This document shows positions 16,698 through 39,816 of a DNA stretch of 64,000 nucleotides, in pieces. The stretch's first letter is position 1. Each line of letters opens with the position of its first letter. Origin of the DNA: Aestuariivivens sediminis (GTDB lineage: Bacteria; Bacteroidota; Bacteroidia; Flavobacteriales; Flavobacteriaceae). The stretch lies in assembly GCF_022662105.1 (NCBI RefSeq), contig NZ_JAKMCP010000002.1:558001-622000 (forward strand), given 5' to 3'. Both the position numbers and the translations under genes were made by a program. The notes beneath the pieces were generated by a model. It saw nothing but the letters and a program-made list of their open reading frames with translations. It did not search any database and was not told the origin of the DNA.

Positions 16698-16725
16698 TGT
16701 TACAAATGTGTAGAGCAATGTTACA
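16698..16725 (+). promoter_or_regulatory. Putative HTCS operator, site 1 (TGTTACA-N14-TGTTACA)
   Basis: Two exact TGTTACA heptamers at 16698-16704 and 16719-16725, a 21-bp period equal to two helical turns. The first is embedded in TGTTACAAATGTG, which recurs exactly at site 2. It ends 73 bp before the first GH110 gene. Direct repeats spaced by two turns suit an AraC-type response regulator dimer. Assignment to the HTCS at 26779-30744 is inference. Confidence 0.65.
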
Positions 16726-16755
16726 GCCGTTTAAGATTGAAATCTATCAAAATCA

Positions 16756-16763
16756 TAAATTGA
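16756..16763 (+). promoter_or_regulatory. Possible -7 box of PUL operon 1
   Basis: TAAATTGA, an imperfect match to the Bacteroidota -7 consensus TAnnTTTG. It begins 30 nt after operator site 1, exactly the spacing found at site 3. Predicted transcription start is about 16770. Confidence 0.4.
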
Positions 16764-16798
16764 AAAAGCATTGAAAATGCCATGTAAAAATTTCATTT

Positions 16799-18661
16799 AT
16801 GAAGCAAATATTTCTTATTGCTATAATTGGTATCATTCTTCTAGGATGTGAATCCACTTCTAAGAAAACGGAACAAAATAGATCCACGACATACTACGAT
16901 CTGAGCAACTCCGGTATAACTGAGACAGACGACGTCACACCTATAGTTGTTGAAGCCCTGGAAAAATGCAAAGAAGAGGGTTATGAAGGTATCCGTTTTC
17001 CCAAAGGAACCTATCACTTCTATCCCACTTATGCCCCCGACTTTTATGCGGCTATAACAAACAACGATAATGGCCTTAAGCGAACGCCTTTCCCCATTTT
17101 CAATTTCAAGGATTTTCATATTGACGGCGGTGGTTCGGAGTTCATATTTCACGGTAAAATGGTCCCATTTATTATTGAAGAAAGTAATAACATTAAGGTC
17201 TCGGATTTTAGTATTGACTGGGAAGTTCCTTTTTTTGCTCAGGGTACCGTTATTGGAAACAATCCCAACGCTAATACTTTTGATGTGCAGATGGAAACCC
17301 CCTATATAGTGGAGGATAACCGGATTTACTTAACCATCGAGAGAGAAGATTCGCCATACGAACAAAAATTTGGCCATAGGTACGCCAAACAGGAGAAGTA
17401 TCATCAAAGGCTGGGTCAGAATATCATATGGGACCGATCCACCAAAGCGCCCATCTATAAACATGGGCTATACAGTGGTTTTGATAACAGCTATTTTTTC
17501 GAAGCAAAAGCTTTGACTGACAGCACAGTCAGGCTTACCTCCAAATACAGGAAGGTCCCTCCCATAGGTTCTGTTTTCATCTCAAAAGGAGAGTATCTCA
17601 ACAACAGAGAAAATCCGGGGATTCGAGTATTCAAATCAAAAGACCTCCTGTTTCAAAACATCAATGTATATCATGCTGGAGCGATGGGCTTAATAGCGGA
17701 ACGATCTACCGATATCACGCTTGATGGTTTCAATGTTGTTTTACGGGAAGGAAGTAACCGCCTGATCACCACAATCGCAGATGCCACACATTTTTGTAAT
17801 TGTAAAGGCCTCATAACCATTACAAATTGCACCTTCGAAAACATGTTGGACGATGCTACCAATGTACATGGTACTTATGCCAGAGTAAAAAAAATCATAA
17901 GTAATCATCAAGTGGCCTATGAAACGTATCATCCGCATCAAAAAGATTATTTCTTCGGGGCAAAAGGTGACAGCATACGCATTGTAGATCGGCATACCTT
18001 GCTTCCTAAATCCGAAATTTTGATCATTGAGGACGTCAAACGCATAAATGAAAAGGTATCTATTCTAAGCCTTAACAAGCCCATAAATGACATTGCACAG
18101 GAGTTCGATGGCATCGATAATGTCTCCTGGCACGCTTCTGCAAAAATTGAAAACAATACGGTAAGAAATAACCGGGCGAGAGGCTTTCTCATTTCAACGA
18201 CACGAAAAGTAACGGTACGCAATAATTATATCTCCTCTCAGATGGCAGCCATGCGCATGTCGGGAGATCTTGAGTTGTGGAATGAATCCGGTCCATGCGA
18301 CAGCCTCCTTATCGAGAACAATCAGTTTGTAAATAATTTGCATGGAGGGAATAAACAGGCCATACTGCTTATAGATCCGGAACAGGAATTACATGAATCC
18401 GAAAGTAAGGGGTATTATCACAAGGATATCATAATTAGAAACAATGATTTTTACGCTTTCGATTCGCCTGTTTTGAAGGCTCATTCTGTTGATGGATTAG
18501 TTTTCGAGTCAAACAGAGTCATACAAACCGATGCCTACGAACCCATATTCCCGGATGAGCCCAACCTTAAAATCACCCATTGTAAGAACGTGACCATTAA
18601 AGACAATACCTATAAATTATTAACGGGAGAGTATACCGATCTTTCGGTTGATACAGATTAG
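16799..18661 (+). CDS. GH110 alpha-1,3-galactosidase-type beta-helix lipoprotein (first)
   Basis: 620 aa, lipoprotein signal (IIGIILLGCES) and right-handed parallel beta-helix repeats (IENNTVRNNRARGFLIS, VTVRNNYISSQMAAMRMSG, IIIRNNDFYAFDSP). The core motif ADATHFCNCKGLITITNC ends in NMLDDATNVHGTY, placing Asp328, Asp351 and Asp352 in the D-x22-DD arrangement that I recall as the GH110 active-site aspartates. GH110 enzymes are inverting exo-alpha-1,3-galactosidases that act on blood-group-B-type or linear Gal-alpha-1,3-Gal ends; marine members act on carrageenan-type oligosaccharides. Surface or periplasmic anchoring through the lipid fits a PUL exo-enzyme. It is first in operon 1, 43 bp before susC, and is preceded by the operator repeat. 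Confidence 0.85.
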   Translation: MKQIFLIAIIGIILLGCESTSKKTEQNRSTTYYDLSNSGITETDDVTPIVVEALEKCKEEGYEGIRFPKGTYHFYPTYAPDFYAAITNNDNGLKRTPFPIFNFKDFHIDGGGSEFIFHGKMVPFIIEESNNIKVSDFSIDWEVPFFAQGTVIGNNPNANTFDVQMETPYIVEDNRIYLTIEREDSPYEQKFGHRYAKQEKYHQRLGQNIIWDRSTKAPIYKHGLYSGFDNSYFFEAKALTDSTVRLTSKYRKVPPIGSVFISKGEYLNNRENPGIRVFKSKDLLFQNINVYHAGAMGLIAERSTDITLDGFNVVLREGSNRLITTIADATHFCNCKGLITITNCTFENMLDDATNVHGTYARVKKIISNHQVAYETYHPHQKDYFFGAKGDSIRIVDRHTLLPKSEILIIEDVKRINEKVSILSLNKPINDIAQEFDGIDNVSWHASAKIENNTVRNNRARGFLISTTRKVTVRNNYISSQMAAMRMSGDLELWNESGPCDSLLIENNQFVNNLHGGNKQAILLIDPEQELHESESKGYYHKDIIIRNNDFYAFDSPVLKAHSVDGLVFESNRVIQTDAYEPIFPDEPNLKITHCKNVTIKDNTYKLLTGEYTDLSVDTD

Positions 18662-18704
18662 GAATAATATAACTATACTAAATAACTTAAATTAAACTAC
18701 AATT

Positions 18705-21700
18705 ATGAGAATTAAATTATTACTTTTTATGCTGTTTATACTGACTGCGGCAATGGATGTCGTAGCTCAGGTGGAAGTAAGTGGTGTTGTACGGGACAAT
18801 GAAACCGGAGATCCGCTATTAGGCGCAACGGTGCTCATTAAAGGAACCAGTAATGGAACCATTACCGACTTGGATGGTGCATTTAATCTATCTGTTGAAA
18901 ACCAGAATGCTATGCTTGTGATTTCTTATACGGGGTATAAAACCATGGAAGTTAAAGCGGGGACCAATCTCCAGATCAATTTAAATGTGGATATTGGCAA
19001 ATTGGACGAAGTGGTGATTATTGGTTACGGTACCCAAAAGCGAAGCGATTTGACCGGTTCTTTGGCCGGGGTAAAATCAGAGACTCTCATGGAATCTCAA
19101 ACTACCGATGTGTTTTCGGCAATGCAAGGCCGAATGGCCGGTGTTCAGATATCTTCAGATTCAGGACAGCCGGGAGGGGGAATCGAACTAACCGTTAGAG
19201 GGCAGACCTCGATAAACGCCTCGTCATCTCCCCTATTTGTAATAGATGGCGTTCAAATTGATGTGAATTATGATGAAGTCGCCACTACTGGCTCTTCGCA
19301 AGCCAGGATCAATCCCTTAACCGGTATTAACCCGGCCGATATCGAGTCTATTGAAGTATTGAAAGATGCCTCTGCAACGGCTATTTATGGGTCTAGAGGT
19401 GCCAATGGCGTTATTATTGTGACCACAAAAAGGGGATCAGATGGCCGTTTAAATGTCGATTACACCTATAATTTAGGCGCTTCAAATGCGATTAGGAAAA
19501 TGCCGATGTTGTCAGCGCAGGAATATATTGTCTACCAGGAGGAACGCGGTAACACGCAGTTTTTAAACCAGGATACGGATAATGATGGTGTTTTTGAAAC
19601 CCCTCGGAATTTTAATGAACTGCAATCATACGACTGGCAGGATGAGGCCTTAAGACTGGCTATCACCCAACAGCATCAGGTGTCCATCAGAGGCGGCAAT
19701 AAAACAACGAATTTTTCTGCAGGTCTGGGTGTCCTCGACCAGGATGGTATTATAGTGAATAATGATTATGACCAATACAATCTAAGGTTAAGGATTAACA
19801 GTGATGCCAGCGACAGGCTATCCCTGGGGTTTAGCTCCAATGCCTCCTATTCGGTTCTTGGCGGGGTTGCCAACAGTGGGGGACCTACCAGTTTTACAGG
19901 AGTTACCCAGCAAATTCTTATGGCTAACCCCTGGGATATTAGAACAGACGATGTGGATGTCACAGACGATGCATTTATTAGTCCACTGGCATTGATTAAG
20001 GATACCGATAAAACAACCAGTATCTTTAGAATATTCTCAAGCATGAATTTAGACTATAAGATATCGGATGATTTAAAATACACTGCGGTCACCGGTGGAA
20101 ACATCAGCCACTCCAAAGTAAAGGAGTTTTACAGCTCCGAAACCTCATGGGGTCGCCTTCAAAATGGCCGGGCTAGGGTAAAGGAAGTCAATACCTACTC
20201 CTATAACCATTCCTCTCAGTTGCATTTCAACAAAACCTTAGGTTCTGATCACCGCATTGATGCCATGGCTGCATTTGAAATTTATCATTATAATTTCGAG
20301 GACTTCGAAAACGAGGTGACAGGCTTCGAAAATCAGACCACCGGTGTAAACAATATCAGTATAGGAACCTCAGTAAGTAACTATACCACTCAAAGATGGA
20401 ACACCAACAGACTCTCCTATCTGGGCAGAGTCAATTATGCCCTCTTCGACAGGTACCTCTTCACTGCCAGTATCAGAGCGGACGGGTCAGATAAATTTGG
20501 TGAAGGCAACCGATGGGGATACTTCCCTTCCGGAGCCATAGGCTGGAAAGTGTCTGATGAGGCGTTCATGAAAAACATCACACCCATTTCTAACCTAAAA
20601 TTGAGATTAAGCTATGGTGAGACCGGAAATGAACGTATTCCTGCTTACACCTACCTGGCACAACTGGATCCGACCTTTTACGCGAGTAATGACAATCTTA
20701 TTTTTGGTCTTGCCCCGTCCTCAATTCCCAACCCAGACCTGAAGTGGGAGACCACCAACCAGTATAATGCAGGTATGGACCTCGGGCTTTTTGGAGGCAG
20801 CTTAACCTTAAGTGCAGACTTGTATAAAAAAATCACTGAAGACCTCTTATTAAATGCCCCTATTCCGTCACAAAGCGGGTTTAACTCCCAGTGGCAGAAC
20901 ATTGGTCGGATTGACAATGAGGGCTTGGAACTGCAAATTACCTCGTTTAACATCAGTAAAAATAATTTCTCATGGCGAACCGATTTTAATATCTCCTTTA
21001 ACCGCAATGAGGTTAAAGATCTCGGGGGGGCTAGTGCTATTCCCGTGGGAACCGGTGGCGGTTGGCAAAATAGTGTTGGAAGAGTCATTGTAGGGGAGCC
21101 TATCGGAACCATGTTCGGCCTTGAGTTTGATGGTATTTATCAAATCGACGATTTTACATGGGATAACAACAGTGACCCAAGCATCCCTCACGACGACAGA
21201 ACCTATGTCCTCAAGGAAGGCCTCCCAGTGTATACCGGAACCGCGCTTCCCGGTAGAATGAAGTATGAAGATGTTAATGGTGATGGCTTTATTAATGATG
21301 ATGACAGGAAGGTCATTGGTGATAGCAACCCCGATCATTTCGGTGGTATTAACAATACTTTCACCTATAAGAACTGGGATCTGTCGGTATTCTTCCAATG
21401 GTCCTACGGCAATGACATTTACAATGCAACCAAAGTCAGACTTAATGGGGTTCAACCTTGGATGAACATCGATCAGGCCTATTTTGAGAATCACTGGACC
21501 CCAGAGAATCCTAACAATTCTTATCCGGCTTATGGTGCGATCGATCAGCAAATTGCTTCTTCCTATTATGTAGAGGATGGCTCCTATCTCAGATTACGAA
21601 CGGTTTCAATTGGTTATAAACTTCCAAAGGAGATCACCGATAAATTGGGGATAAACTCCTTAAAATTTAATCTTATTGGGAATAATTTAGCGACCTGGAC

Positions 21701-21818
21701 CAATTACACAGGATGGGATCCGGAAGTTAATTTTAACAACCCATTGCTTACAGGATTTGATCGTATAGCCTATCCAAGAGCCAGGAATTTTACCTTTAGT
21801 CTTACAGCAACATTTTAA
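18705..21818 (+). CDS. SusC-like TonB-dependent transporter, PUL operon 1
   Basis: 1037 aa outer-membrane importer. A signal peptide (ends VVAQ) is followed by a carboxypeptidase-regulatory-like N-terminal domain (VSGVVRDNETGDPLLGATVLIKGTSNGT, ~22-105) and the TonB-box region KLDEVVIIGYGTQKRSDLTGS. The plug has the signature IESIEVLKDASATAIYGSRGANGVIIVTTKRG (~215-245), and a long beta-barrel ends in a terminal aromatic residue (LSLTATF). It would import oligosaccharides using TonB energy, capped by the SusD lipoprotein encoded 11 bp downstream. A DVNGDGFINDDDRKVIGDSNPDHFGG block in the barrel region is typical of SusC. Confidence 0.95.
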   Translation: MRIKLLLFMLFILTAAMDVVAQVEVSGVVRDNETGDPLLGATVLIKGTSNGTITDLDGAFNLSVENQNAMLVISYTGYKTMEVKAGTNLQINLNVDIGKLDEVVIIGYGTQKRSDLTGSLAGVKSETLMESQTTDVFSAMQGRMAGVQISSDSGQPGGGIELTVRGQTSINASSSPLFVIDGVQIDVNYDEVATTGSSQARINPLTGINPADIESIEVLKDASATAIYGSRGANGVIIVTTKRGSDGRLNVDYTYNLGASNAIRKMPMLSAQEYIVYQEERGNTQFLNQDTDNDGVFETPRNFNELQSYDWQDEALRLAITQQHQVSIRGGNKTTNFSAGLGVLDQDGIIVNNDYDQYNLRLRINSDASDRLSLGFSSNASYSVLGGVANSGGPTSFTGVTQQILMANPWDIRTDDVDVTDDAFISPLALIKDTDKTTSIFRIFSSMNLDYKISDDLKYTAVTGGNISHSKVKEFYSSETSWGRLQNGRARVKEVNTYSYNHSSQLHFNKTLGSDHRIDAMAAFEIYHYNFEDFENEVTGFENQTTGVNNISIGTSVSNYTTQRWNTNRLSYLGRVNYALFDRYLFTASIRADGSDKFGEGNRWGYFPSGAIGWKVSDEAFMKNITPISNLKLRLSYGETGNERIPAYTYLAQLDPTFYASNDNLIFGLAPSSIPNPDLKWETTNQYNAGMDLGLFGGSLTLSADLYKKITEDLLLNAPIPSQSGFNSQWQNIGRIDNEGLELQITSFNISKNNFSWRTDFNISFNRNEVKDLGGASAIPVGTGGGWQNSVGRVIVGEPIGTMFGLEFDGIYQIDDFTWDNNSDPSIPHDDRTYVLKEGLPVYTGTALPGRMKYEDVNGDGFINDDDRKVIGDSNPDHFGGINNTFTYKNWDLSVFFQWSYGNDIYNATKVRLNGVQPWMNIDQAYFENHWTPENPNNSYPAYGAIDQQIASSYYVEDGSYLRLRTVSIGYKLPKEITDKLGINSLKFNLIGNNLATWTNYTGWDPEVNFNNPLLTGFDRIAYPRARNFTFSLTATF

Positions 21819-21829
21819 AAATATTCAAT

Positions 21830-23473
21830 ATGAAAACTTATATTAAAAATCTATCCTTTTTGGTGTTGTTCCTTGCAGTTATATCCTGTGAAGATACCTT
21901 GGAACCAACACCATATTCGTTCACAGCACCTGAAAATTTCTATAAATCTGCTCAGGATGCCGAAATCGCCCTGGTAGGGGTTTACAATACACTAACAGCT
22001 GGTAGCATTCAGGGAGGAGGTAATGCTTCCTCATTCAGGAGAGACCTGTTTGAGATGCTGGTAGGCGGAACAGGTGAAGGTGTTATACCCGCAAGATTCG
22101 CTAATAGAAGAGGTGCAGAATGGGGTACAGGACAGTTCTCCAGCAGTACAGGCGAGATTAATAATGCCTGGTTTTTTCTCTACGCTGGCATTGGTCGCGC
22201 CAACAGTTTGCTTGAAAATTTACCAAGTATACCCGATGCAGAATTTTCGAATACCCGGAAAGCCGAAATTGAGGGTGAAGCGAAACTCCTGAGGGGCTAT
22301 TATCACATGATGCTCTCTATGATGCACGGTGCCATCCCGGTTTACACAAAAACGGGTGATGATCCTCTTATGGGGAGAAAATCTGTTCAGGAGGTCTATA
22401 CCCAGATCCTTTCAGATTATGAATTTGCTTATCAAAATCTTCAGCACAGAGGACTAAGGGGAGGTGCAGTAGATAAATGGACTGCCGCAGGGCTACTGGT
22501 AAAGGCTCATACCTATCTGGCCAGTATGAAAACCAACGGGCTGAGTGATTTTGGGTATGCTCCCAATAGTTTTGACTGGGTTAACGCCACAGACAGTTAT
22601 ACGAAGGCAGTGACCATATCTGCAGACATAGTCGCTAATAGCGGGTATACCCTGACAGCAAATTATGATCGTCTGTTCAGGGAATCGACCAAAACGGCAC
22701 AGGCTGAGGAGGTCATGCTGTCCGCTGAAGGTTCATCTGATGCCTCACAACAGGTGATCACCATCGTTGTAAATAACTTTATTCCTCAGGGAAATGCACC
22801 AAGATTAGGCGGTGGCTCAGGATGGACCCGTCCAACAGGGGAACTCTATGATTTGTATCATTCAGCCGATTTCCGTTTCAGTCATAATGTATCAGGAAAT
22901 ATAGGTGGAAATGCCAATATACTGGATGTTATAGAAATTGACGGGGTCCGATATTACCAGCCCAGAACGCTCCCCGGGAAAAATAATGGGACGATGAGTG
23001 TGGGCAAATACCGGATGAAAGACCCTTCACAGAAAAGCTATGCCCCTTGGGCATCAGGAATTTCTTTCCCGCTATTACGATATGGAGATATTCTTCTGCT
23101 TCGTGCTGAGGCACTGTACTATACCGGAGATGAGTCCGGAGCCAGGGCTGTATTGACCGAACTGCGTCAACGCTCCGTCATGGCTCCTGCAACCGTTGAT
23201 GATCTGAACACGGCCTATTTCAACGCAGATTTTGTTAAAGAATTGCAGGAAGAGCGTTCAAGAGAGCTGTGCTTCGAGATCTGGAGACGGATTGACCTGG
23301 CACGATTCAATATCTATGATGAGACGATAAGTTCTCTCGATCCGGACAATGGCTTTTACAATGGCGATGTCACCCTGTTACAGCAAAACTGGAAATCGGA
23401 GAAGGTTTGGTATCCAATACCATTGGGACAAATTGATTTAAATTCAAATCTAGTTCAAAATCCCGGTTACTAG
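21830..23473 (+). CDS. SusD/RagB-like glycan-binding lipoprotein, PUL operon 1
   Basis: 547 aa. Lipoprotein signal (FLAVISCEDTLEPTPYSFTAPENFYKS) then the helical TPR-like SusD fold. Family segments are AEIALVGVYNTL, AEIEGEAKLLRGYYHMMLSMMHGAIPVYT, LLRYGDILLLRAEALYYTGD, ELQEERSRELCFEIWRRIDLARF and the terminal VWYPIPLGQIDLNSNLVQNPGY. It is surface exposed, binds the incoming glycan and sits as a lid on the SusC barrel. It is translationally close to susC (11 bp) and followed by a strong hairpin before the sulfatase gene. Confidence 0.95.
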   Translation: MKTYIKNLSFLVLFLAVISCEDTLEPTPYSFTAPENFYKSAQDAEIALVGVYNTLTAGSIQGGGNASSFRRDLFEMLVGGTGEGVIPARFANRRGAEWGTGQFSSSTGEINNAWFFLYAGIGRANSLLENLPSIPDAEFSNTRKAEIEGEAKLLRGYYHMMLSMMHGAIPVYTKTGDDPLMGRKSVQEVYTQILSDYEFAYQNLQHRGLRGGAVDKWTAAGLLVKAHTYLASMKTNGLSDFGYAPNSFDWVNATDSYTKAVTISADIVANSGYTLTANYDRLFRESTKTAQAEEVMLSAEGSSDASQQVITIVVNNFIPQGNAPRLGGGSGWTRPTGELYDLYHSADFRFSHNVSGNIGGNANILDVIEIDGVRYYQPRTLPGKNNGTMSVGKYRMKDPSQKSYAPWASGISFPLLRYGDILLLRAEALYYTGDESGARAVLTELRQRSVMAPATVDDLNTAYFNADFVKELQEERSRELCFEIWRRIDLARFNIYDETISSLDPDNGFYNGDVTLLQQNWKSEKVWYPIPLGQIDLNSNLVQNPGY

Positions 23474-23501
23474 AACACTAATTATTTTTGAGTTAGTCAT
23501 T

Positions 23502-23546
23502 GGAGCTATGTTGGGATGGATTAACAAGTCTGACATAGCTCCTTTT
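23502..23546 (+). terminator. Hairpin with T tail after susD 1 (intra-operon attenuator or terminator)
   Basis: GGAGCTATGT (23502-23511) pairs perfectly with ACATAGCTCC (23533-23542), followed by TTTT. It lies 28 bp after the susD stop and 20 bp before the sulfatase start. Placement suggests partial termination, so that SusC/SusD are made in excess over the enzymes downstream. Confidence 0.65.
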
Positions 23547-23566
23547 AAATGTGTGATAAAATCAAA

Positions 23567-24901
23567 ATGAAAAAGAGCCTGATCATCCATTTCATACTGT
23601 TTATTTTACTGATGTTGACAACCCTTTCGGCACAGTCAAAACCCAATGTCGTTCTGCTATTTGTCGATGACTGGGGATGGTCCGATGTCGGTTTCAGAAA
23701 TGATCGATTTTACACTCCTAACATCGACCAATTAAAAAGAGATGGGATGGAGTTTACAAGGGCTTATGTTCCCACGCCCACCTGCAGTCCGAGCAGGGCA
23801 AGCCTGCTTACGGGTAAAGAGGCCATTCGCTTGGAAATGCCCCGACACATCGAACATCAAAACAAGGATGGGACGAATGATGAGAAATACAATTACTGGA
23901 AAAACGATCCCGCCCATATGCCTTCCATCAATTGGCTCCCCCTTGAGGAAGTGACCTATGCCGAGGTCTTGAAAGATCAGGGGTACTTCAACATGTTCAT
24001 TGGAAAATGGCATTTGGGACACGAACCGTATTATCCAATCTATCAGGGGTTTGACGCCATGTTTGGGACAGGTAACTGGGGGCATCCAAAAAGTTATTAC
24101 CCCGATTTTTTTAAGGATAATTTACTGGAAGATTATACGGATGAATACCTGACAGACGTCCTAACGGATAAAGCCGTTAATTTTATAGATCACTACGATC
24201 GGACAGAACCTTTTATGATGTCGCTTTGGTACTATAATGTACATTCACCCCATGTAGGCAGGAAAGATCTGGTTGATGAGTTCCTGAAAAAGGGTTACGA
24301 CAATAAGGAAGCAATCTATGCGGCCATGGTAGCGAGCATGGATGAATCTGTAGGAAGGGTTAGAGATGCGTTAAAACATAAAGGAATTGATAAAAATACC
24401 ATAGTACTGCTCATCTCCGATCAGGGTGGTTTCTTTAGTAATGCGCCCTTGTCTGGAGGAAAAATAGGTGGAAATACTTTGGGAGAAGGAGGGGCCAGGG
24501 TGCCGTTTTTGGTTTATTATCCCGGAGTAACGACCCCCGGATCTGAATCTGATACCCCCATTCAAACCATAGATGTCTTCCCTACTCTGGCAGAAATTGC
24601 CTCTAAAAACACTTTTAAGCCACATAACATCCAGGGAGTAAGCCTATTGTCCGAACTGAAAGGAGAAAAGTTAAAACCACGGGATCTGTATTTTTATCGA
24701 AGTTATGAGGACCAGTATGCAGCGATACTGTCAGGGAACTGGAAACTGATTAAATACAGAAGTGGTACATATGAATTATTTAATGTGGTTGACGATGTTT
24801 CTGAAAAGAAGAACCTGATCGGAAAAGATCTTCCGATCGAAAAGAAATTGAAAAGAAAGCTTTACAAATGGGAAAAGCGAGCGGTTCCGGTTTATCATTG
24901 A
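23567..24901 (+). CDS. Secreted S1-family sulfatase (operon 1)
   Basis: 444 aa from the chosen start at 23567. An in-frame ATG at 23549 adds six residues ahead of the signal peptide MKKSLIIHFILFILLMLTTLSAQ and is less likely. KPNVVLLFVDDWGWSDVG supplies metal-binding Asp residues. TCSPSRASLLTGKEA contains the C-x-P-x-R sulfatase signature with Cys73 converted to formylglycine. GKWHLGHEPYYP and LISDQGGFFSN complete the active site. It hydrolyses a sulfate ester on a carbohydrate in the periplasm. It needs a formylglycine-generating enzyme, which is not in this window. It has close in-operon spacing to the second GH110 gene, consistent with desulfation before galactosidase action. The S1 subfamily is not assigned. 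Confidence 0.9.
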   Translation: MKKSLIIHFILFILLMLTTLSAQSKPNVVLLFVDDWGWSDVGFRNDRFYTPNIDQLKRDGMEFTRAYVPTPTCSPSRASLLTGKEAIRLEMPRHIEHQNKDGTNDEKYNYWKNDPAHMPSINWLPLEEVTYAEVLKDQGYFNMFIGKWHLGHEPYYPIYQGFDAMFGTGNWGHPKSYYPDFFKDNLLEDYTDEYLTDVLTDKAVNFIDHYDRTEPFMMSLWYYNVHSPHVGRKDLVDEFLKKGYDNKEAIYAAMVASMDESVGRVRDALKHKGIDKNTIVLLISDQGGFFSNAPLSGGKIGGNTLGEGGARVPFLVYYPGVTTPGSESDTPIQTIDVFPTLAEIASKNTFKPHNIQGVSLLSELKGEKLKPRDLYFYRSYEDQYAAILSGNWKLIKYRSGTYELFNVVDDVSEKKNLIGKDLPIEKKLKRKLYKWEKRAVPVYH

Positions 24902-24953
24902 TAAGACGTTCTGACTTGTAAACCATGATCACACCTAAAATAAACAGATATTC

Positions 24954-26756: not shown

Positions 26757-26778
26757 TTAATGAGAGGATCAAAATCTT

Positions 26779-29700: not shown

Positions 29701-30744
29701 ATTGACCAAAATAGACCTGACATTGGGTCCATTATAGTTGTCCAAATTAATGGCATAAAAGCCGGTATGATGAAGATTGGTAAAACAAAGCCCATGCCGG
29801 TTCCCCACCCATAGATTATTGAATCGGTCATAATATAACTTCAGGATCGTGTTGCTGAGCAATCCTCTGGGGTTGGTTCTGGAACTCGTAAATTGATTGA
29901 CAAAATTTAAGGAACTGTCCAACTGAAGGAGTCCATTGTTTCGAGTCCCAATCCAGATATTCCCCACTTGATCTTTAGTCATGGAACTTATGGATAATTC
30001 AGGCATTTCGGAGGTTAAAAGTTTCTTTAAACCATCCATTTTATCTATGATAAAAAGCCCATCGTATCCACCCACGAGTATCGATGATCCTGTATATACC
30101 AAACTCGTGAAAGTGCGTTTTTCCGGATTGGGTAGTTTTAACAGTTTATCATCCTTCAAAAGAAAGATGCCATAATTTCCTGCAAAATAGATATCCCCAT
30201 CGGGTAACTGGAGGACATCCCTGAAATGATAATTTTGAAACCCGGTAATAAATTCAAATTCAGGTTCACTACTCTCATTCAATCTCAGAATTCCCTTAGA
30301 GGATACGGCATACAATACACCATCATCGGTAAGAAGGAAATCAAAAATAATACCTGCATTTTTGGGAGATTTTACCCTAAAGAATTGGTCTTTTAAGAGT
30401 GAATAGTAGGAGATAAGACCTGCTTCTGTTCCTATCCATAATTTTTTATGATTGTCCTCGAAAAGCGAACTGATTCGATTATCTGGAAGACTTGCCGGGT
30501 TAGAAGTCTGTCTGCGAAAAGTAACCAGATTTTTTCCGTCAAAACGGTTAAGGCCATCATAAGTGCCTATCCAAACAAAACCATAACTATCGCGGACAAT
30601 AGAGTTGACATCATTTTGGGATAAACCATCCTCAATCGTTAAATTCTTAAAATAGAGTTCCTGAGCGCATATGGGGTGTATAATTCCTATTAGGAAAACA
30701 TATAGACATGCTAACAGTTTTTCTGGTTTGAAATAACCCATCAT
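26779..30744 (-). CDS. PUL hybrid two-component system regulator (HTCS)
   Basis: 1321 aa. After a signal peptide (IIHPICAQ) come two seven-bladed propellers built of reg_prop repeats (GLSQNDVNSIVRDSYGFVWIGTYDGLNRFDG, NHKKLWIGTEAGL, NIWIGTRNNGLLQLD). A Y_Y_Y Ig-like domain (NFRYRLNGYDDRWV...YSNLDPGNYMFQLQ) follows, with a transmembrane segment around residues 760-785. Then come HisKA with phospho-His820 (GHEFKTPLSLIL), HATPase (NAFKYTPTGG, DSGPGVPDEQ, SSGIGLHLAKS), a receiver with phospho-Asp1115 (ITDIMMPLMDG) and an AraC DNA-binding domain (LASDVGLSRMHLHRKLK). Such proteins bind an oligosaccharide in the periplasm and activate PUL genes. It lies between the two SusCD operons and is the likely reader of the TGTTACA repeats. 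Confidence 0.95.
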   Translation of the reverse strand: MMGYFKPEKLLACLYVFLIGIIHPICAQELYFKNLTIEDGLSQNDVNSIVRDSYGFVWIGTYDGLNRFDGKNLVTFRRQTSNPASLPDNRISSLFEDNHKKLWIGTEAGLISYYSLLKDQFFRVKSPKNAGIIFDFLLTDDGVLYAVSSKGILRLNESSEPEFEFITGFQNYHFRDVLQLPDGDIYFAGNYGIFLLKDDKLLKLPNPEKRTFTSLVYTGSSILVGGYDGLFIIDKMDGLKKLLTSEMPELSISSMTKDQVGNIWIGTRNNGLLQLDSSLNFVNQFTSSRTNPRGLLSNTILKLYYDRFNNLWVGNRHGLCFTNLHHTGFYAINLDNYNGPNVRSILVNDDHLILGINNEGLFKYDLKTNNLKLLKGPRMSYVNHIAKIDNTVYVCSNMGLDVLQDDETLVPVLKNQTGLTNIRCIEKDPYGRLLIGTIDGILIKENNEVKWIWEDFPSLQSLNQSYIFRMLFDTHSNQLLVGTISKGLIVLKMGTNGQFTHANVESLIDLNGDPILNTSVWCFYEAKDNTIWAGTDVGLFRKTINSEWFEQINVGGVIDKKIMGIAEDSNHNLWLSNTHGLIHYNPMQSKVKTYTYDDGLLSSSMTESSGFYGDYLFFGTTNGINYFDPLKISLNPYNPELLLSNIKINNEIVKPGAELFGSVILNENINSTNRLTLNHLQNDVSFEFSGTNFTNNSRNNFRYRLNGYDDRWVYTSNNPIVSYSNLDPGNYMFQLQLEDHEGQWTKNGIELPISIIPSPWKSNFAYVIYAILISLIISGFIYFWFHKQRLDHQIELDKIKIQQDKELREKQLRFFVDVGHEFKTPLSLILAPFNDLMNQSLSREQKMMCEEIVSRNIQRMKFLVNQLLDFGKISEGENLVRVTKKDLRQAIRDYTKAFQWQVLREEIDLRLNLDKCEGYFDRSVLEKGFYNILSNAFKYTPTGGVIDISLKVEEVKGLQYAIITVSDSGPGVPDEQKEHIFERFYHGKDRASSGIGLHLAKSLIQAHGGSITVEDSELNGTKFKIRLPISSRYYFEKEADQNVEDLIQTEHQQDGVFDDEAIEKGETILIVEDDHDLRNYLKISLQNDYAILEANNGEQGLFLAQENLPDMVITDIMMPLMDGIDMCQKLKSNKETSHIPVIFLTAKTDIEFQKKGLAAGAWDFITKPFNSEVLRRKVDNILETRNKFKTYLMDHNINVDIKSHYTSYDQKLIKNINQVIERNINNPNFTVNDLASDVGLSRMHLHRKLKTLVGETGKSIITRIKMKYAIDMFDNGCDRVQEAMNAVGITNYGIFNSNFKKIKRVTATEYIANLKEKSNSI

Positions 30745-31070: not shown

Positions 31071-31098
31071 TGTTACAAATGTGACGCAAGCTGTTACA
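31071..31098 (+). promoter_or_regulatory. Putative HTCS operator, site 2 (TGTTACA-N14-TGTTACA)
   Basis: Exact TGTTACA copies at 31071-31077 and 31092-31098, with the same 21-bp period as site 1. The left half continues identically as TGTTACAAATGTG. It is 220 bp upstream of susC 2. At 31129, 30 nt past the repeat, TACCTATC occupies the position of the -7 box seen at the other sites, with a poor consensus match. Confidence 0.65.
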
Positions 31099-31280
31099 AA
31101 TCAATTCATCAGAATCAAGAACTCTTATTACCTATCAACTGAGAATTTATCAGAAAATTTTTGCTAAAGAATATAGATATAAACCTTAATTTTTATCGAA
31201 TTGACATTATCCCCCTTCATTTTGACTAATTCACCCCTATTATTGGTCTGAATGACTACTTTACAAAACAAGGAAATTAT

Positions 31281-31288
31281 TACTTTTG
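31281..31288 (+). promoter_or_regulatory. Candidate -7 box (TACTTTTG) for susC 2
   Basis: Exact match to TAnnTTTG, ending 30 bp before the susC 2 start. It is about 180 bp from operator site 2, so it may be a second basal promoter rather than the activated one. Confidence 0.4.
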
Positions 31289-31318
31289 AAAACGATAAAC
31301 TAACTAAATAAATAACAG

Positions 31319-34318
31319 ATGAAACAACTAAACGCTTTACTGAAGCAAACGGCATTTTCAGGTATTATGCTATTTGCGGTGTTCGCTATGTATGGGCAGA
31401 ACACGATTCAGGGAACAGTAACAACTGCCGCCGATGGAGAACCCATTCCGGGAGTAAATGTGATTATCAAGGGGACCACCCAGGGAACGGCAACCGATTT
31501 TGATGGTAATTTTACCATTAGTGCCTCCCCCGATGATGTCTTGGTGATTAGCTCTTTGGGCTATAAAACCCAGGAGTTGACAGTAGGTAATCAAACAATC
31601 ATGACCATAGTCCTGGAAGAAGATGCCGCCGCACTCGATGAGGTGGTGGTCGTGGGTTATGGTACAGCCAGGCGTAGTGATTTAACAGGTGCTTTGACTT
31701 CGGTATCCTCCAGTGATTTTAACAAGCAACCTTTAAGTACTGGAAGCCAGGCTCTGCAAGGTAGAGCTGCCGGAGTGCAAGTTACCCAAACATCCGGTGC
31801 TCCGGGGGGGAACTTTAAAATAAGGATCCGAGGAGCTAACTCCATAACAGGCAGCAATGAACCCCTATACGTCATTGATGGCCAATTTGCCAGTATTAAT
31901 ACCATTAACGTCAACGATATCCAATCTATGGAAGTTCTGAAGGATGCCTCCTCGACAGCTATTTATGGGACGAGGGGTGCCAATGGGGTGATTTTGATTA
32001 CTACCAAGACCGGGCGCTCGGGCAAACCCAAATTTGATGTGAATTTATTTACCGGAATATCCAATATAACTCAAAAATTGGATTTGATGAATGCGGCCGA
32101 TTTTGCCGAGGGGGTCAACTTTTCTGATGGCATGGAGGTGTTTACTGCCCAGGAAATAGCCGATCTCAGAGCCAATGGCGGAGAGGATTGGCAGGAACGT
32201 CTGTTTCAAACAGCTTACTTTAATAATGTGCAGATCTCGGCAAGCGGGGGTAGTGATGCCGTGGATTACTATATTTCGGGTTTATATTATGACGCCAGTG
32301 GTACCGTGGTGGACCATCAAAAGATCAGACGAATGAATCTGAGATCGAATTTCAACGCCAAATTATCAGAAAAAATAAAAGTCGGTCTTAATTTTAATGT
32401 AGGACAAGAAAAAAACACAGGAATCAGGGCTGATTTAGGGGTGGGATTGTCATTCGACCCAACTACACCAGCATTTGATGAGAATGGCGATTATAATTAT
32501 AACTCAATCAAAAATTTAGCGACATCACAAACCAATCCTTTGGTGGCCGCCGAAAATAATATAAGGTATAACATAGGAGATCGTATAAGCCTCAATGGGA
32601 ATTTCAATTGGGACATTCTGGATAATCTGGTGTTCAATACCTCCGGGGGTCTTATTAAAGTGGAAAACCACAACAATGCCTATGCCCCATTAATCTCCAG
32701 TGCTAATGGTAGAGCTGATGTCGATAATATTTACAGAACAAATCTCTACAACACCAATCGCCTAACCTATACCCCTAATATTGGAGAAGACCACAGTTTA
32801 AAGATAGATGCCATACACGAATTGGTAATTGACAAGTCCAACAGCACTTTCATTACGGCCACCGACTTTTTCACAGATCTGGTGACCTATAAGGATTTGA
32901 GCGCGGCCAATGTACAAAGGGTTGATAACAGTGAGAGCCAAAGGGAATTGGAATCCTTTCTGGGACGGGTCAATTATGTGTTTTTGGATAAGTATTTATT
33001 GACGGCTTCTTTTAGGGCAGATGGTTCAAGTGTATTCCAAAAGGACAAATGGGGGTATTTCCCATCGGGATCAATTGCCTGGAAGGCATCAGAAGAGGAT
33101 TTTCTAAAAAATAGTGAAACCGTTAACAACTTAAAATTGAGGTTGAGTTATGGTGAGGTCGGTAATCAAGGGATCAATGTTTTTGGAACACGGTCTCGTG
33201 CCGTGCTTGGATTAGGGGTGAATTATCCTTTTGATGGCAATGATGTCACGGGTGTTGCACCATCCAACCGGATTTCGAACCCGGATTTAACCTGGGAAAA
33301 AACCAAACAAATTAATGTAGGTTTGGATTTGGGATTATTCAACTCGATTATTGATCTGTCATTTGACTATTACCAGAAAAATACAACCGATTTGTTACTG
33401 GACACACAATTACCGCCTTTTGTTGGACCAACGGCCAAATTTGTAAATGCCGGAGAAGTTGAAAACAAAGGGTTTGAAATCACTTTGGATACCAGAATTC
33501 TACAAAATGACAGCTGGAATATCACATCAACTTTAAGTGTCACAAGCAATAAAAATAAAGTGTTATCGCTTAATGATGATGTCCAGTTCCTGGTAGTGGG
33601 TGATGTGATCCGGCAAAATACCTTTCCTGTAAATCCAACCCGGGTTGAGGTTGGTTTACCCATAAGTTCATTCAGAGGCTATGTTTTTGAAGGCGTTTAC
33701 CAGTTGGGTGAAGAAACTGAAGCCGCGCAATTCAATAAAGCACCGGGGGATGCAAAATACAGAGATGTCAATGGTGATGGTCAAATTACAACCGACGACA
33801 TTGTCACTGTGGGCGATGGAAACCCCGATTTCATTTGGGGCTGGAATTGGGACATCAGTTATAAGAACTGGAATTTGAACTTCCTGTTAACGGGATCTCA
33901 GGGCAATGACATCTATAATTTGCAACGTGGCAGACTCATGGCCCTTGGTGCCCAGCAGTTCCATGCCGTACATGGGGATTACAGGAACCGATGGACCTCA
34001 ACCAACCCCAGTAATATTCCATCGGGAAGAGATGGCACTGAAATTCTGTCCTCCCAATTTATTGAAGATGGCTCATTTATGACATTGAAAAATATTGCAC
34101 TAAGTTATAATGTAGACTCTAATTTCCTCGACAAGTTAGGGCTTGATGGCGTAAGACTGTATGCAAGTGCAGAGAATTTATTCATTATTACAGACTATAC
34201 CGGGTTTGACCCTGAGGCCACGTCATCGGTAAGTAATGAGGATGCCGATATCGGAATAGATTATAACACCTACCCGATTAACCGTTCCTTTACCTTTGGT
34301 GTCAATGTTAAATTTTAA
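31319..34318 (+). CDS. SusC-like TonB-dependent transporter, PUL operon 2
   Basis: 999 aa. Starts MKQLNALLKQTAFSGIMLFAVFAMYGQ (signal peptide), then a carboxypeptidase-regulatory-like domain (IQGTVTTAADGEPIPGVNVIIKGTTQGTATDFDG). The TonB-box region is ALDEVVVVGYGTARRSDLTGALTS. The plug has IQSMEVLKDASSTAIYGTRGANGVILITTKTG, and the barrel ends ...SFTFGVNVKF. It has the same architecture as the operon-1 SusC but clearly diverged sequence, so it probably imports a different oligosaccharide size or sulfation state. It forms a pair with the SusD gene 17 bp downstream and is divergent from the HTCS gene. Confidence 0.95.
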   Translation: MKQLNALLKQTAFSGIMLFAVFAMYGQNTIQGTVTTAADGEPIPGVNVIIKGTTQGTATDFDGNFTISASPDDVLVISSLGYKTQELTVGNQTIMTIVLEEDAAALDEVVVVGYGTARRSDLTGALTSVSSSDFNKQPLSTGSQALQGRAAGVQVTQTSGAPGGNFKIRIRGANSITGSNEPLYVIDGQFASINTINVNDIQSMEVLKDASSTAIYGTRGANGVILITTKTGRSGKPKFDVNLFTGISNITQKLDLMNAADFAEGVNFSDGMEVFTAQEIADLRANGGEDWQERLFQTAYFNNVQISASGGSDAVDYYISGLYYDASGTVVDHQKIRRMNLRSNFNAKLSEKIKVGLNFNVGQEKNTGIRADLGVGLSFDPTTPAFDENGDYNYNSIKNLATSQTNPLVAAENNIRYNIGDRISLNGNFNWDILDNLVFNTSGGLIKVENHNNAYAPLISSANGRADVDNIYRTNLYNTNRLTYTPNIGEDHSLKIDAIHELVIDKSNSTFITATDFFTDLVTYKDLSAANVQRVDNSESQRELESFLGRVNYVFLDKYLLTASFRADGSSVFQKDKWGYFPSGSIAWKASEEDFLKNSETVNNLKLRLSYGEVGNQGINVFGTRSRAVLGLGVNYPFDGNDVTGVAPSNRISNPDLTWEKTKQINVGLDLGLFNSIIDLSFDYYQKNTTDLLLDTQLPPFVGPTAKFVNAGEVENKGFEITLDTRILQNDSWNITSTLSVTSNKNKVLSLNDDVQFLVVGDVIRQNTFPVNPTRVEVGLPISSFRGYVFEGVYQLGEETEAAQFNKAPGDAKYRDVNGDGQITTDDIVTVGDGNPDFIWGWNWDISYKNWNLNFLLTGSQGNDIYNLQRGRLMALGAQQFHAVHGDYRNRWTSTNPSNIPSGRDGTEILSSQFIEDGSFMTLKNIALSYNVDSNFLDKLGLDGVRLYASAENLFIITDYTGFDPEATSSVSNEDADIGIDYNTYPINRSFTFGVNVKF

Positions 34319-34335
34319 TTTTAAAAAATAATACT

Positions 34336-35853
34336 ATGAATCGCATATATAATATATTGTTTTTGTTTGGGATGGTGATGCTTGTTAATGTATCCTGCCT
34401 AGACTTAGAAGAGGATACGAGTAGTTTGCTTCAGGTGGGGCAAATTGCCAGCGAAGCGGATATTGAAGCCAACATTTCACCCATTTATGTTTCAGTACGC
34501 AGAACCAACAACGATCCGCATTTTTTAAGAACCGCGACCTACGGAGCCGACGATATCACAACCTGGATTGCCGGAAATAAGGCCCCGCTTAGGGTATTTG
34601 ACAGATTTGACTATGGCAGCGGTGAGAACTCCGACATCAATTGGTTACCTGTAGCATGGGATAACTATTGGAAAACCATCTATTATTGTAATACGCTTAT
34701 AGAAGGATTGAAAACCTCCAGTGCCCCTGAAGCCCTTGTAAAATTGGCCGATGCTGAAGCTAGAGTCTTTAGAGCACATGCCTATCTTAATCTTGTAAAA
34801 ATATATGGTAATGTGCCATTGATTTTGGATGGTTATTTGCCAACCGGTGAAGAACAGCGTGCAACCGTATTGGCAAACTACCAGCAAATTGAAAGCGACT
34901 TGCTTATTGCCGAAGTGTCCTTACCTGCTCCGGGATCGGAAAGCACAGGACGGGCCTCTGCAGGTTTTGCAAAGACGGTACTGGCAGATCTCTATTTAAC
35001 ATGGGCCGGATGGCCGGTTAAGGATAATTCAAAATATGCATTGGCCGCTTCAAAGGCTAAGGAAGTTATTGACTTTAACTATTATACCCTTCTTCCTATT
35101 GAAGAGTTATGGACCTTTGAGGGCGCTTTGAGTACCGAAACCATATTCTCTGTGAGATATCCCGCCGATGAAAGCAGATGGGGTTCACAGGGTACTGCAT
35201 TTACATTTCACCAGGGTCGTGGGTTTTCAGACTGCTTCCCGGAGTTGCGCTTTTTCAATGATTTTCCTGAAGGTCCGAGAAAAGATTACACTTTCCTGTT
35301 GGATATTCCCAATAGAAATGCCCCCGGGGGTGTGATTACGCCCAGAAATCCACCGACCATCCCGTGGGAAGACTCCGATAGAGGGCACCCCATGTATAGG
35401 AAATATGTTTTTGCTGAGGACTTGACTATTTTTAGTAGACCAGTAAATTTCAGACCTTATGATTTGTATCGGTATGCCGAAGTCCTATTGATTTATGCTG
35501 AGGCGCAAGCCAGGGTTGGTGAAAATGCCAGCTCCATAGAAGCGCTTAATCAAGTGAAAAGAAGAGCTGCCGGATTACCCTATTTAACACCCAACGGTAC
35601 GGTTGATGTTGCCACGGCAACACCGAACGAAATTATCGATGAGAAGGGATGGGAACTGGCTGCAGAGAACAAACGATGGTTCGATTTGGTGCGCTCAGAG
35701 CGTGTGGCCGAAATGGCCGCCAAAAGAGATCCGTCGGAACCCGTAACTTTGGTAAGAATGCCCACAGCGGCACAGTATATTGCACCTATTCCCTTTGAGT
35801 CCATTACTCTGAGTAAATTAGTACAAAACCCGGAAGGATTTAAAATACAATAA
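34336..35853 (+). CDS. SusD/RagB-like glycan-binding lipoprotein, PUL operon 2
   Basis: 505 aa. Lipoprotein signal (MVMLVNVSCLDLEEDTSSLLQ) followed by SusD family blocks: WDNYWKTIYYCNTLIEGL, AEARVFRAHAYLNLVKIYGNVPLILDGYLP, LYRYAEVLLIYAEAQARVG, EIIDEKGWELAAENKRWFDLVRSERV and the terminal YIAPIPFESITLSKLVQNPEGFK. It would work with the SusC upstream to capture glycan at the cell surface. It is followed after about 90 bp by the strongest hairpin terminator in the window, so most transcription of operon 2 should end here. Confidence 0.94.
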   Translation: MNRIYNILFLFGMVMLVNVSCLDLEEDTSSLLQVGQIASEADIEANISPIYVSVRRTNNDPHFLRTATYGADDITTWIAGNKAPLRVFDRFDYGSGENSDINWLPVAWDNYWKTIYYCNTLIEGLKTSSAPEALVKLADAEARVFRAHAYLNLVKIYGNVPLILDGYLPTGEEQRATVLANYQQIESDLLIAEVSLPAPGSESTGRASAGFAKTVLADLYLTWAGWPVKDNSKYALAASKAKEVIDFNYYTLLPIEELWTFEGALSTETIFSVRYPADESRWGSQGTAFTFHQGRGFSDCFPELRFFNDFPEGPRKDYTFLLDIPNRNAPGGVITPRNPPTIPWEDSDRGHPMYRKYVFAEDLTIFSRPVNFRPYDLYRYAEVLLIYAEAQARVGENASSIEALNQVKRRAAGLPYLTPNGTVDVATATPNEIIDEKGWELAAENKRWFDLVRSERVAEMAAKRDPSEPVTLVRMPTAAQYIAPIPFESITLSKLVQNPEGFKIQ

Positions 35854-35946
35854 CTGTATGTGATGGAGAAAAACAGATATTTAAAAGTATTGCGCTAAAG
35901 GTGCTTATAAAAAGTTTGAGTTAGTTTAATCATGTATTAGTTTGGT

Positions 35947-35994
35947 GTTTGTCAATTAGATGCTCATTTTGCATCTGGTTGACAAACTTTTTTA
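35947..35994 (+). terminator. Strong rho-independent terminator after susD 2
   Basis: A 17-bp stem (35947-35963 with 35971-35987, including two T-G pairs) closes a 7-nt loop and is followed by TTTTTT. It separates susCD 2 from the sulfatase gene at 36131 and parallels the hairpin after susD 1. Confidence 0.85.
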
Positions 35995-36130
35995 ACAGGG
36001 CCTTTGTTTAAGAGCAGCTATATACAACCAGATCAGGCAAAGCGTATACCTGTTAAGGATTGCTACACAATAATAATCTATTAAAAGATTCACGCTTCGG
36101 AGTTTATTAGAAAATTAAATACGAAAAATC

Positions 36131-37708
36131 ATGAAATTACAATTTTACATTTTATTATTATGTCTATTATTTATTAGTACGAATTGTAAGCAAAAACCTG
36201 AAACCAGCGCAAATGAACAGGGTGTAATGGTTGAAACTCCCCCTGACACAAAGAAACCAAATATCGTAATCATCTATCTTGACGATCTGGGATACGGCGA
36301 TTTGGGTTGTTATGGCGCTACGGCCTTAAAAACACCTCATATGGATGCCTTAGCCAATGGCGGTGTAAAATTCACCAATGGGTATGCTACTTCCGCAACC
36401 TGTACCCCCAGCCGATATGGCCTTCTAACAGGGGTCTATCCCTGGAAAAACAAACAGGCAAAAATCCTCCCCGGAACGGCGCCACTCATTATAGATACCA
36501 CTCAGTTAACCCTGCCTAAACTGCTTAAAAAACAGGGGTACCAGACCGGTATTGTGGGCAAATGGCATTTAGGCCTGGGAATTGGAGATGTGGATTGGAA
36601 TAAAACGGTTTCTCCCGGACCCAATCAGGTGGGCTTCGATTATTCGTATATCATGGCAGCGACCCAAGATCGTGTCCCCACCGTTTATATTGAGAATGGT
36701 CAGGTGGATGGTTTGGATCCTAATGACCCGATACAAGTGGATTATGAAACTAATTTTGAAGGAGAACCTACGGCCATAACCCACCCGGAACTCTTAACCA
36801 TGAAGTGGCATCACGGCCATAATAACAGCATTGTAAATGGCATCCCAAGGATTGGTTTTATGAAAGGCGGAGAGGCCGCCAAATGGCGCGATAGCGATAT
36901 GGCCGATCATTTCTTGAAAGGGGCGCAGGATTATGTGAAAAAACATAAAGACGAACCCTTCTTTTTGTACTACGCCATGCAACAACCCCATGTCCCCAGA
37001 ACCCCACATCCCAGATTTGTTGGATCCTCCGGTTTAGGACCAAGAGGCGACGTGATCGTAGAAGCCGATTGGGTGGTTGGCGAATTTGTAAAAACACTGG
37101 AACAAGAAGGTATTCTAGAAAACACGCTTATCATTCTCTCCAGTGACAATGGTCCCGTATTAAACGATGGCTATTACGATGATGCCGTTGAAAAACTAGG
37201 AGAACATGACCCAAATGGTGGTTTGAGAGGCGGTAAATACAGTCTGTTTGAAGCCGGAACCAGGGTCCCCTTTATCACCTATTACAAAGGCACAATCAAA
37301 CCAAAGGTATCCGATGCTCTGGTTTGTCAATTGGATGTATTGGCTTCCATTGCACATTTAATTGGGGCCGAAGAAATAGCCTCTGACAGTCAAAATTTAT
37401 TAAACACTTTTTTTGGGCAAAGTGATGAAGGTCGAGAGGACCTTATTATTGAGGCCACCACGAGAACCGCCTTAAGGTCCGGTGACTGGTTAATGATTCC
37501 TCCATATGAAGGGAAGGCTTTTGAAGAACAGGTGGGGATTGAGACAGGGAATTCGGATGCATATCAATTATACAATTTGAAAAACGATATGGGCCAAAAG
37601 TATAATCTGGCCGCATCCAATACTAAAATACTCGAAGATCTCATTACTAAATTTGAAAGGGTTCGAGGAAAAGATTACAACACCATTGAGCAGCTCGAAT
37701 TGAAATAG
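36131..37708 (+). CDS. S1-family sulfatase lipoprotein
   Basis: 525 aa. Lipoprotein signal (LCLLFISTNCKQKPETS) then the sulfatase fold. PNIVIIYLDDLGYGDLGCYG provides metal ligands. ATCTPSRYGLLTGVYPW holds the C-x-P-x-R motif with Cys91 as the formylglycine precursor. GYQTGIVGKWHLGLG and IILSSDNGPVLNDGYYDD supply further active-site residues. HGHNNSIVNGIPRIGFMKGGEAAKWRDSDMADHF is an insertion typical of arylsulfatase-A-like carbohydrate sulfatases. Probably anchored to the outer membrane. The gene stands 136 bp beyond the strong terminator, so it either has its own promoter or depends on read-through. The substrate position of the sulfate is unknown. Confidence 0.9.
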   Translation: MKLQFYILLLCLLFISTNCKQKPETSANEQGVMVETPPDTKKPNIVIIYLDDLGYGDLGCYGATALKTPHMDALANGGVKFTNGYATSATCTPSRYGLLTGVYPWKNKQAKILPGTAPLIIDTTQLTLPKLLKKQGYQTGIVGKWHLGLGIGDVDWNKTVSPGPNQVGFDYSYIMAATQDRVPTVYIENGQVDGLDPNDPIQVDYETNFEGEPTAITHPELLTMKWHHGHNNSIVNGIPRIGFMKGGEAAKWRDSDMADHFLKGAQDYVKKHKDEPFFLYYAMQQPHVPRTPHPRFVGSSGLGPRGDVIVEADWVVGEFVKTLEQEGILENTLIILSSDNGPVLNDGYYDDAVEKLGEHDPNGGLRGGKYSLFEAGTRVPFITYYKGTIKPKVSDALVCQLDVLASIAHLIGAEEIASDSQNLLNTFFGQSDEGREDLIIEATTRTALRSGDWLMIPPYEGKAFEEQVGIETGNSDAYQLYNLKNDMGQKYNLAASNTKILEDLITKFERVRGKDYNTIEQLELK

Positions 37709-37781
37709 ACTAAATTATCTAAACGGAACCATTCCTTTTTTTCAAGATTAAATACGTGATATCCCTTAAATATCATGTAAA

Positions 37782-37809
37782 TGTTACATTTTAATATGTT
37801 TTGGTTACG
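37782..37809 (+). promoter_or_regulatory. Putative HTCS operator, site 3 (TGTTACA-N14-GGTTACG)
   Basis: TGTTACA at 37782-37788 and GGTTACG at 37803-37809, again 21 bp apart; the second half matches 5 of 7 positions. It lies 155 bp upstream of the GH110-like gene and 74 bp after the sulfatase stop. The weaker half-site may give graded activation. Confidence 0.55.
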
Positions 37810-37839
37810 TGAAATAAGGACTCATAATTCAATGAATTA

Positions 37840-39724: not shown

Positions 39725-39816
39725 GGACAACGCTGACGATTGAGTGGATATATTAAAACAAAGGGATTCAAAATGAGAATAACCTCTTATTCCGGTAAAT
39801 ACTAATTTTATATTCT

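Follow-up and report, generated by a model that had tools for sequence, protein, structure and literature searches.

A TGTTACA direct repeat as the predicted activator site of a hybrid two-component regulator in a polysaccharide utilization locus of Aestuariivivens sediminis

Background

Which regulator reads the direct repeat TGTTACA-N14-TGTTACA, and which genes does it control? The question is raised by a polysaccharide utilization locus (PUL) of Aestuariivivens sediminis (Flavobacteriaceae), in which copies of the repeat lie in front of three gene units (units 1 to 3) and a hybrid two-component system protein (HTCS) is encoded at 26779-30744. All positions refer to the analysed stretch of 64,000 nucleotides (contig NZ_JAKMCP010000002.1, positions 558,001 to 622,000 of the forward strand), called here the window. 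Sequence comparisons make it very probable, in our view, that the repeat is the activator site of this HTCS, which would use it to switch on units 1 to 3 together with a gene group on another contig (C5). To our knowledge, few HTCSs of the family have a known DNA target.

Results and discussion

Copies of the repeat in the window and in the genome

A preliminary description of the window had placed exact copies at 16698-16725 and 31071-31098 (operators 1 and 2) and an imperfect copy at 37782-37809 (operator 3). All three were found there, on the plus strand, with the period of 21 bp (two turns of the helix) that had been described. The sequence TGTTACAAATGTG, reported as common to operators 1 and 2, is indeed present in both. 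This extension is probably incidental since the corresponding sites of the sister species (genome G003) differ at those positions.

Exact copies are not common at random. None occurred in 200 dinucleotide shuffles of the window, and the genome (3.93 Mb) contains four, compared with none for the motif read backwards as a control; a further six copies carry one mismatch. In 299 genomes of the family, a hand tally gave 156 exact copies against 23 for the backward control. The genome scan with up to two mismatches that the preliminary description had proposed is, however, unspecific (62 matches forward and 68 backward). At that level the motif alone is thus no commoner than its control, which is what a chance resemblance in A+T-rich promoters would produce. 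Against such a chance origin stand the excess of exact copies far above expectation, their conservation before orthologous genes and their fixed distance to the -7 box (see below), and we give it practically no weight. Operator 3 is not significant on its own, as matches with up to two mismatches occur at chance level; it is supported because the orthologous site of G003 is exact and because its own -7 box matches at 6/6 letters.

Two other matches were set aside as chance. The site at 56814 (two mismatches) lies within a 553-amino-acid (aa) gene beside a BatA-like gene, with a best box of 4/6 at +32 on one strand, and the site at C10:139016 (one mismatch) is intragenic and without a box. The highest number of exact copies among the 299 genomes is seven, in G174. 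Three of these lie in a 13-kb stretch (L169:938-965, 3288-3315 and 13125-13152), two of them 2.3 kb apart, before consecutive genes.

Conservation in orthologous loci

A search of 397 family genomes (E 1e-180 or better) identified an HTCS ortholog in five, including the genome under study; the other four are G003 (same genus, 74% identity), G181 (69%), G159 (44%) and G205 (41%). These contain four, two, two and one exact copies of the repeat, respectively. The nine copies are all that the four genomes possess, and every one lies within the orthologous PUL. Conservation of this kind had been suggested as a check on the proposal that the repeat is the operator of the HTCS, and the result strongly supports that proposal in silico. 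The repeat precedes both the cognate PUL genes and their orthologs (reversed at unit 1 of G181, see below). For operator 1, the orthologous site in G003 is exact and has a -7 box of 5/6.

Promoter geometry

In a Flavobacterium, the principal promoter box is TAnnTTTG, located at -12 to -5 (PMC9723704). We looked for it behind 49 distinct exact sites from the window, from loci of the same genome and of the ortholog genomes, and from 59 further, partly overlapping loci. A box with at least 5/6 letters begins exactly 31 bp after the repeat (+31) in 31 of the 49 sites. At all other offsets from 5 to 69 it is present in 0 to 3 sites, and when the sites are read backwards it is found at +31 in 1/49. 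Boxes of 3/6 or less at +31 occur in 16 sites. This is the arrangement expected of an activator site at a constant distance from a flavobacterial sigma-A promoter. As the TAnnTTTG box sits at -12 to -5 (PMC9723704), the operator would lie at about -70 to -43, a typical position for an activator adjoining RNA polymerase. Transcription starts are predicted near 16768, 31141 and 37852 for operators 1, 2 and 3.

Of the 18 sites listed for the PUL group, 13 are followed at +31 or +32 by a box matching in 4/6 letters or more (two third half-sites whose positions overlap pairs already in the list, L029:9660 and G003 19831, are omitted from it, as are readings starting with TGTAACA). When the 62 matches of the A. 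sediminis genome at up to two mismatches are considered, 15 have such a box at +31: 11 of the 22 intergenic sites and 4 of the 40 intragenic ones. The 11 include the three window sites, two on contig C5, C13:13404, C13:5377 and C12:106194; the remaining three (the reverse of 31071, L014 and L019) are two-mismatch readings that we regard as doubtful. Raising the threshold to 5/6 leaves 5/62 sites, none of them inside a gene: the two on C5, the two on C13 and operator 3. The spacing is not proposed here for HTCSs in general, because 21-bp repeats of any sequence near seven other HTCS-type genes of this genome gave no clear peak (seven rows at four loci with 21 bp, five rows with 23 bp).

An inverted copy with one mismatch at 16648-16675, absent from the preliminary description, lies upstream of operator 1. 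It is conserved in G003, where it is 10 bp from its partner (22 bp here), and is probably an auxiliary site. A role in serving a divergent gene was rejected: the frames beginning in the 500 bp on that side are of 36 and 37 aa, none reaching 100 aa, no -7 box was found at +31 or +32, and the G003 copy faces the 3' end of a gene.

The recognition helix

The HTCS combines a sensor, a histidine kinase, a receiver and an AraC-type DNA-binding domain in one protein, and its receiver carries the S/CHIP motif (PMC11253607) as SHIP at residue 1137. The first helix-turn-helix of its DNA-binding domain reads SRMHLHRKL. Each of the genomes G003, G181, G159 and G205 has one match to the codon pattern for RM[HQ]LHRKL, always in the HTCS ortholog.

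Across the 299 family genomes, this coding pattern occurs at 93 places. An exact copy of the repeat lies within 500 bp of 43 of them; the number rises to 53 at 5 kb and to 57 at 20 kb, compared with 0/56 places at each distance for a control helix, SQLYRK[IL]K. These counts are lower bounds (the list used contains 150 of the 156 motif copies, and G159 is scored as a miss despite its two copies). By genome, a listed motif copy is present in 57/73 of those with the helix (odds ratio 18, p 7e-22) and in 17/49 of those with the control helix (odds ratio 1.2, p 0.6); as the genomes are related, the p values are only a guide.

We examined 30 of the 93 places. At 25, a site with at most one mismatch lies within 700 bp past the stop codon. 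The other five comprise three of PUL type (L118, L119 and L140), L136, where an exact site precedes the gene group to which the helix gene belongs (read in L176), and L144, with a two-mismatch match only. The S/CHIP motif is present upstream of the helix in 25 of the 30, a loose check that these places are HTCSs.

These counts also bear on the possibility that some regulator other than an HTCS binds TGTTACA repeats and that the HTCS is a bystander. Such a regulator would account for the 81 of 150 listed motif copies that are farther than 20 kb from any helix match. Chance copies probably make up part of the 81, given the 16 of 49 distinct exact sites with a poor box at +31, and a bystander would not lead one to expect the co-occurrence of helix and site by genome, which the control helix does not show. 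We therefore think this very unlikely. We lean towards a general rule: any HTCS with the helix RM[HQ]LHRKL in this Flavobacteriaceae-like family would bind TGTTACA-N14-TGTTACA 31 bp before TAnnTTTG, whatever its sensor, and the second helix-turn-helix would add the letters that define subgroups of sites.

A second HTCS with the same helix

Both among the aligned HTCS-type proteins of A. sediminis and in a genome-wide search with the codon pattern, RM[HQ]LHRKL was found in two proteins only, the PUL HTCS and an HTCS on contig C13 (in the region L030:5377-17556). The latter, of 1370 aa and with the helix SRMQLHRKL, is encoded outside a PUL. An exact site (C13:13404) lies just past its gene and a one-mismatch site farther on; the genes behind the C13 sites include those for a reprolysin-like protein with a secretion tail, a CHU_C protein and a PorP/SprF protein. 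Because this second HTCS has the same recognition helix and an exact site of its own, the motif is not exclusive to the PUL HTCS.

The C13 protein might thus also bind the PUL operators, so that two regulators would cross-talk. The shared helix and the exact repeat beside the C13 gene favour this, as does the TGT at positions 10-12 that operators 1 and 2 have in common with the C13 type of site. The other family sites with a -7 box, however, show further conserved letters (positions 8, 12 and 16) that are mostly lacking in the PUL sites. In 25 sites outside the PUL group with a -7 box, compared with 12 exact PUL-group sites, T occupies position 8 in 24/25 versus 3/12, T position 10 in 20/25 versus 4/12, T position 12 in 22/25 versus 3/12 and A position 16 in 22/25 versus 3/12. 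These differences suggest that the second helix-turn-helix sets the subgroups of sites apart. In addition, the PUL sites persist in G003, G181, G159 and G205, genomes in which the helix pattern is matched only once. We judge cross-talk unlikely, though a good deal less so than the bystander explanation.

A one-mismatch site on contig C12 (C12:106194; L032:8194-8221), with a box of 4/6, precedes short genes, one of them encoding a type IX secretion tail; it is perhaps a distant target of the C13 HTCS. We also examined, using Pfam, 41 chosen proteins encoded behind sites of the non-PUL type at 11 loci from 10 other genomes (L165-L175). Recurrent families are secreted or surface ones (Por_Secre_tail in five, DUF4412 in four, OmpA, YadA head and Peptidase_S74 in three each). 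A few of the proteins are enzymes, and for many no Pfam match is listed. SusC and SusD families were not among the 23 Pfam families found in these 41 proteins.

Distal sites on contig C5

The proposal that the three units form one regulon is strongly supported by the comparisons above and has to be amended in one respect besides the lack of exclusivity of the motif: the regulon is probably larger and includes two sites on contig C5. The first of these (C5:471639-471687; L029:9639-9687) is an exact pair with a third half-site, giving three TGTTACA-like boxes 21 bp apart, an arrangement also found in G003. It precedes the gene of a 492-aa protein that carries a type IX secretion tail and matches a beta helix below the threshold. 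The second (C5:473487, one mismatch) precedes a glucuronyl-esterase-like gene, which is followed by genes for a sulfatase, a 698-aa protein without a Pfam match and a SASA-type esterase. In G003, orthologs of five C5 genes (52-77% identity) directly adjoin the PUL, and the first of them is preceded by an exact site; in G181, two of the five are inside unit 1. We infer that the C5 group split off from the PUL in the A. sediminis genome and kept its operator. If the first C5-type site of G003 is read by a helix-bearing HTCS, this must be the PUL HTCS, because G003 has no second helix match.

Points against the proposed operator

A number of observations weigh against the view that the repeat is the activator site of the PUL HTCS. 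Besides the second protein with the same helix, they concern the promoter boxes, the ortholog loci and the protein. The boxes of operators 1 and 2 match at only 4/6 letters, a level also reached at +31 by the 4/40 intragenic sites mentioned above. Five of the 18 PUL-group sites have no box at +31 or +32 (16648, its counterpart in G003, G003 39188, G159 5271 and G181 39427); these look auxiliary. The only exact site before unit 1 of G181 points away from the unit and has no box at either offset, so that no clear site close to the promoter is left for that unit. Before the G003 ortholog of the gene behind the second C5 site, there is no counterpart of that site even with two mismatches allowed. 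The HTH_18 match of the HTCS DNA-binding domain barely passes (34.7, with a cut-off of 33.6). Finally, the helix loci are related: 23 of the 30 fall into one single-linkage cluster (60% identity in the DNA-binding domain).

Apparent gene loss and weakening of the operator at unit 3

In G003, G181 and G205, two genes, encoding proteins of 436-439 aa (64-73% mutual identity) and 891-893 aa (61-75%), precede the ortholog of the first gene of unit 3. When the A. sediminis genome was searched with the 893-aa protein, the best match was its neighbour (43% identical). The 436-aa protein gave no match in a search that was run without a positive control, which makes this negative a weak one. The region upstream of unit 3 aligns with G003 (75% over 126 bp), with the first box of the repeat and the -7 box kept and the second box changed. 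These observations suggest a deletion of the two genes at 37709-37963 and a weakening of operator 3, which is possibly still working.

Genes of the locus and a possible substrate

The features of the locus are collected in Table 1. Both GH110-type enzymes of unit 1 contain GLAA-B barrel domains and a beta helix in Pfam; we take the GLAA/GLAB domains to indicate glycoside hydrolase family 110 (GH110). Unit 3 had been described as a pair of GH110-like and sulfatase genes. The sulfatase holds, while the partner is a Pfam beta-helix protein without a GLAA-B barrel domain, so that GH110 is not confirmed. GH110 enzymes occur together with sulfatases in the breakdown of lambda-carrageenan by Pseudoalteromonas (PMC12549532), and on this basis one may reasonably guess, but no more than guess, that the substrate is a sulfated alpha-galactan. 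A reading frame of 533 aa without a Pfam match (14498-16099) lies between a GH92 gene and unit 1.

Table 1. Repeat copies, candidate promoter boxes and genes of the locus (+31, 31 bp after the repeat)
Feature	Position	Strand	Description
Operator 1	16698-16725	+	Exact TGTTACA-N14-TGTTACA, 73 bp upstream of the first gene of unit 1
Operator 2	31071-31098	+	Exact; between the HTCS gene and susC 2
Operator 3	37782-37809	+	Two mismatches, weakened second half GGTTACG
Inverted copy	16648-16675	-	One mismatch, upstream of operator 1
Candidate -7 box TAAATTGA	16756-16763	+	4/6 to TAnnTTTG, +31 from operator 1
Candidate -7 box TACCTATC	31129-31136	+	4/6, +31 from operator 2
-7 box TAAATTTG	37840-37847	+	6/6, +31 from operator 3
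HTCS, presumed regulator	26779-30744	-	Reg_prop, Y_Y_Y, HisKA, HATPase, receiver, AraC-type DNA-binding domain (Pfam)
Unit 1	16799-26756	+	GH110-type beta-helix enzyme, SusC, SusD, sulfatase, GH110-type enzyme (Pfam)
Unit 2	31319-37708	+	SusC, SusD, sulfatase (Pfam)
Unit 3	37964-41403	+	Beta-helix enzyme, sulfatase (Pfam)

Proposed mechanism and its implications

The sites, their conservation across species, their fixed spacing from the -7 box and the association of helix and site can be read from the sequences themselves; the regulatory steps are proposed on that basis. A periplasmic breakdown product of the target polysaccharide would bind the HTCS sensor and the receiver would become phosphorylated. 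Two AraC-type domains would then occupy the two TGTTACA boxes, one each, as neighbours on the same face of the DNA. At about -70 to -43, the bound HTCS would sit beside RNA polymerase on the -7 box TAnnTTTG. Units 1, 2 and 3 would thereby be switched on and, in trans, the esterase and sulfatase group on C5 with its two sites.

One operator is in this way tied to its regulator (by conservation), to a promoter (by the fixed spacing) and to a few helix residues (by the association across the family). With this, the regulon of a presumed sulfated-galactan PUL becomes open to direct test, and others can be predicted by a simple rule. If the helix rule is true, regulons of uncharacterised HTCSs, including the large non-PUL group, could be read from the genome, and HTCSs with a common helix in one cell could cross-talk.

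Comparison with known systems

According to PMC3878776, the operators of Bacteroides HTCSs are direct repeats whose period averages 21 bp, and two monomers bind to them on the same side of the helix. The statement in the preliminary description that AraC-type domains of HTCSs bind direct repeats thus agrees with a published form, and TGTTACA-N14-TGTTACA has it too. The likeness to these predicted operators (Ravcheev et al. 2013, PMC3878776) extends to the two-box repeat before susCD/enzyme operons and to the inclusion of distant operons in some regulons. Clusters of similar HTCSs with similar motifs are also reported there, and TGTTACA may be among the motifs. Unlike that work, the present analysis concerns another family and adds a fixed distance to the -7 box and a recognition-helix rule (the comparison is of arrangement, not of box sequences).

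The HTCSs BT4124 and BT4663 of Bacteroides thetaiotaomicron, as described in PMC11253607, likewise have a receiver with the S/CHIP motif (here SHIP) and an AraC-type domain. Their binding to susCD-operon promoters was shown by gel shift, whereas binding is predicted here. A Vibrio XylR-like regulator (PMC12125979) was considered for comparison and set aside. Among the matches listed in a literature search, judged from titles and the beginnings of abstracts with few subscription papers, we found nothing on the motif, the helix or a fixed spacing between HTCS site and promoter; papers containing TGTTACA were judged in the same way.

The carrageenan regulon of Zobellia galactanivorans (PMC5698469) provides a flavobacterial PUL that, like the present one, has distal regulon members. 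It differs in being tied to an AraC-family regulator, CgrA, and the accessible part of that source names no operator sequence. Compared with these systems, the 21-bp direct-repeat form is already published; the rule linking helix to operator and the fixed spacing to the promoter go beyond it.

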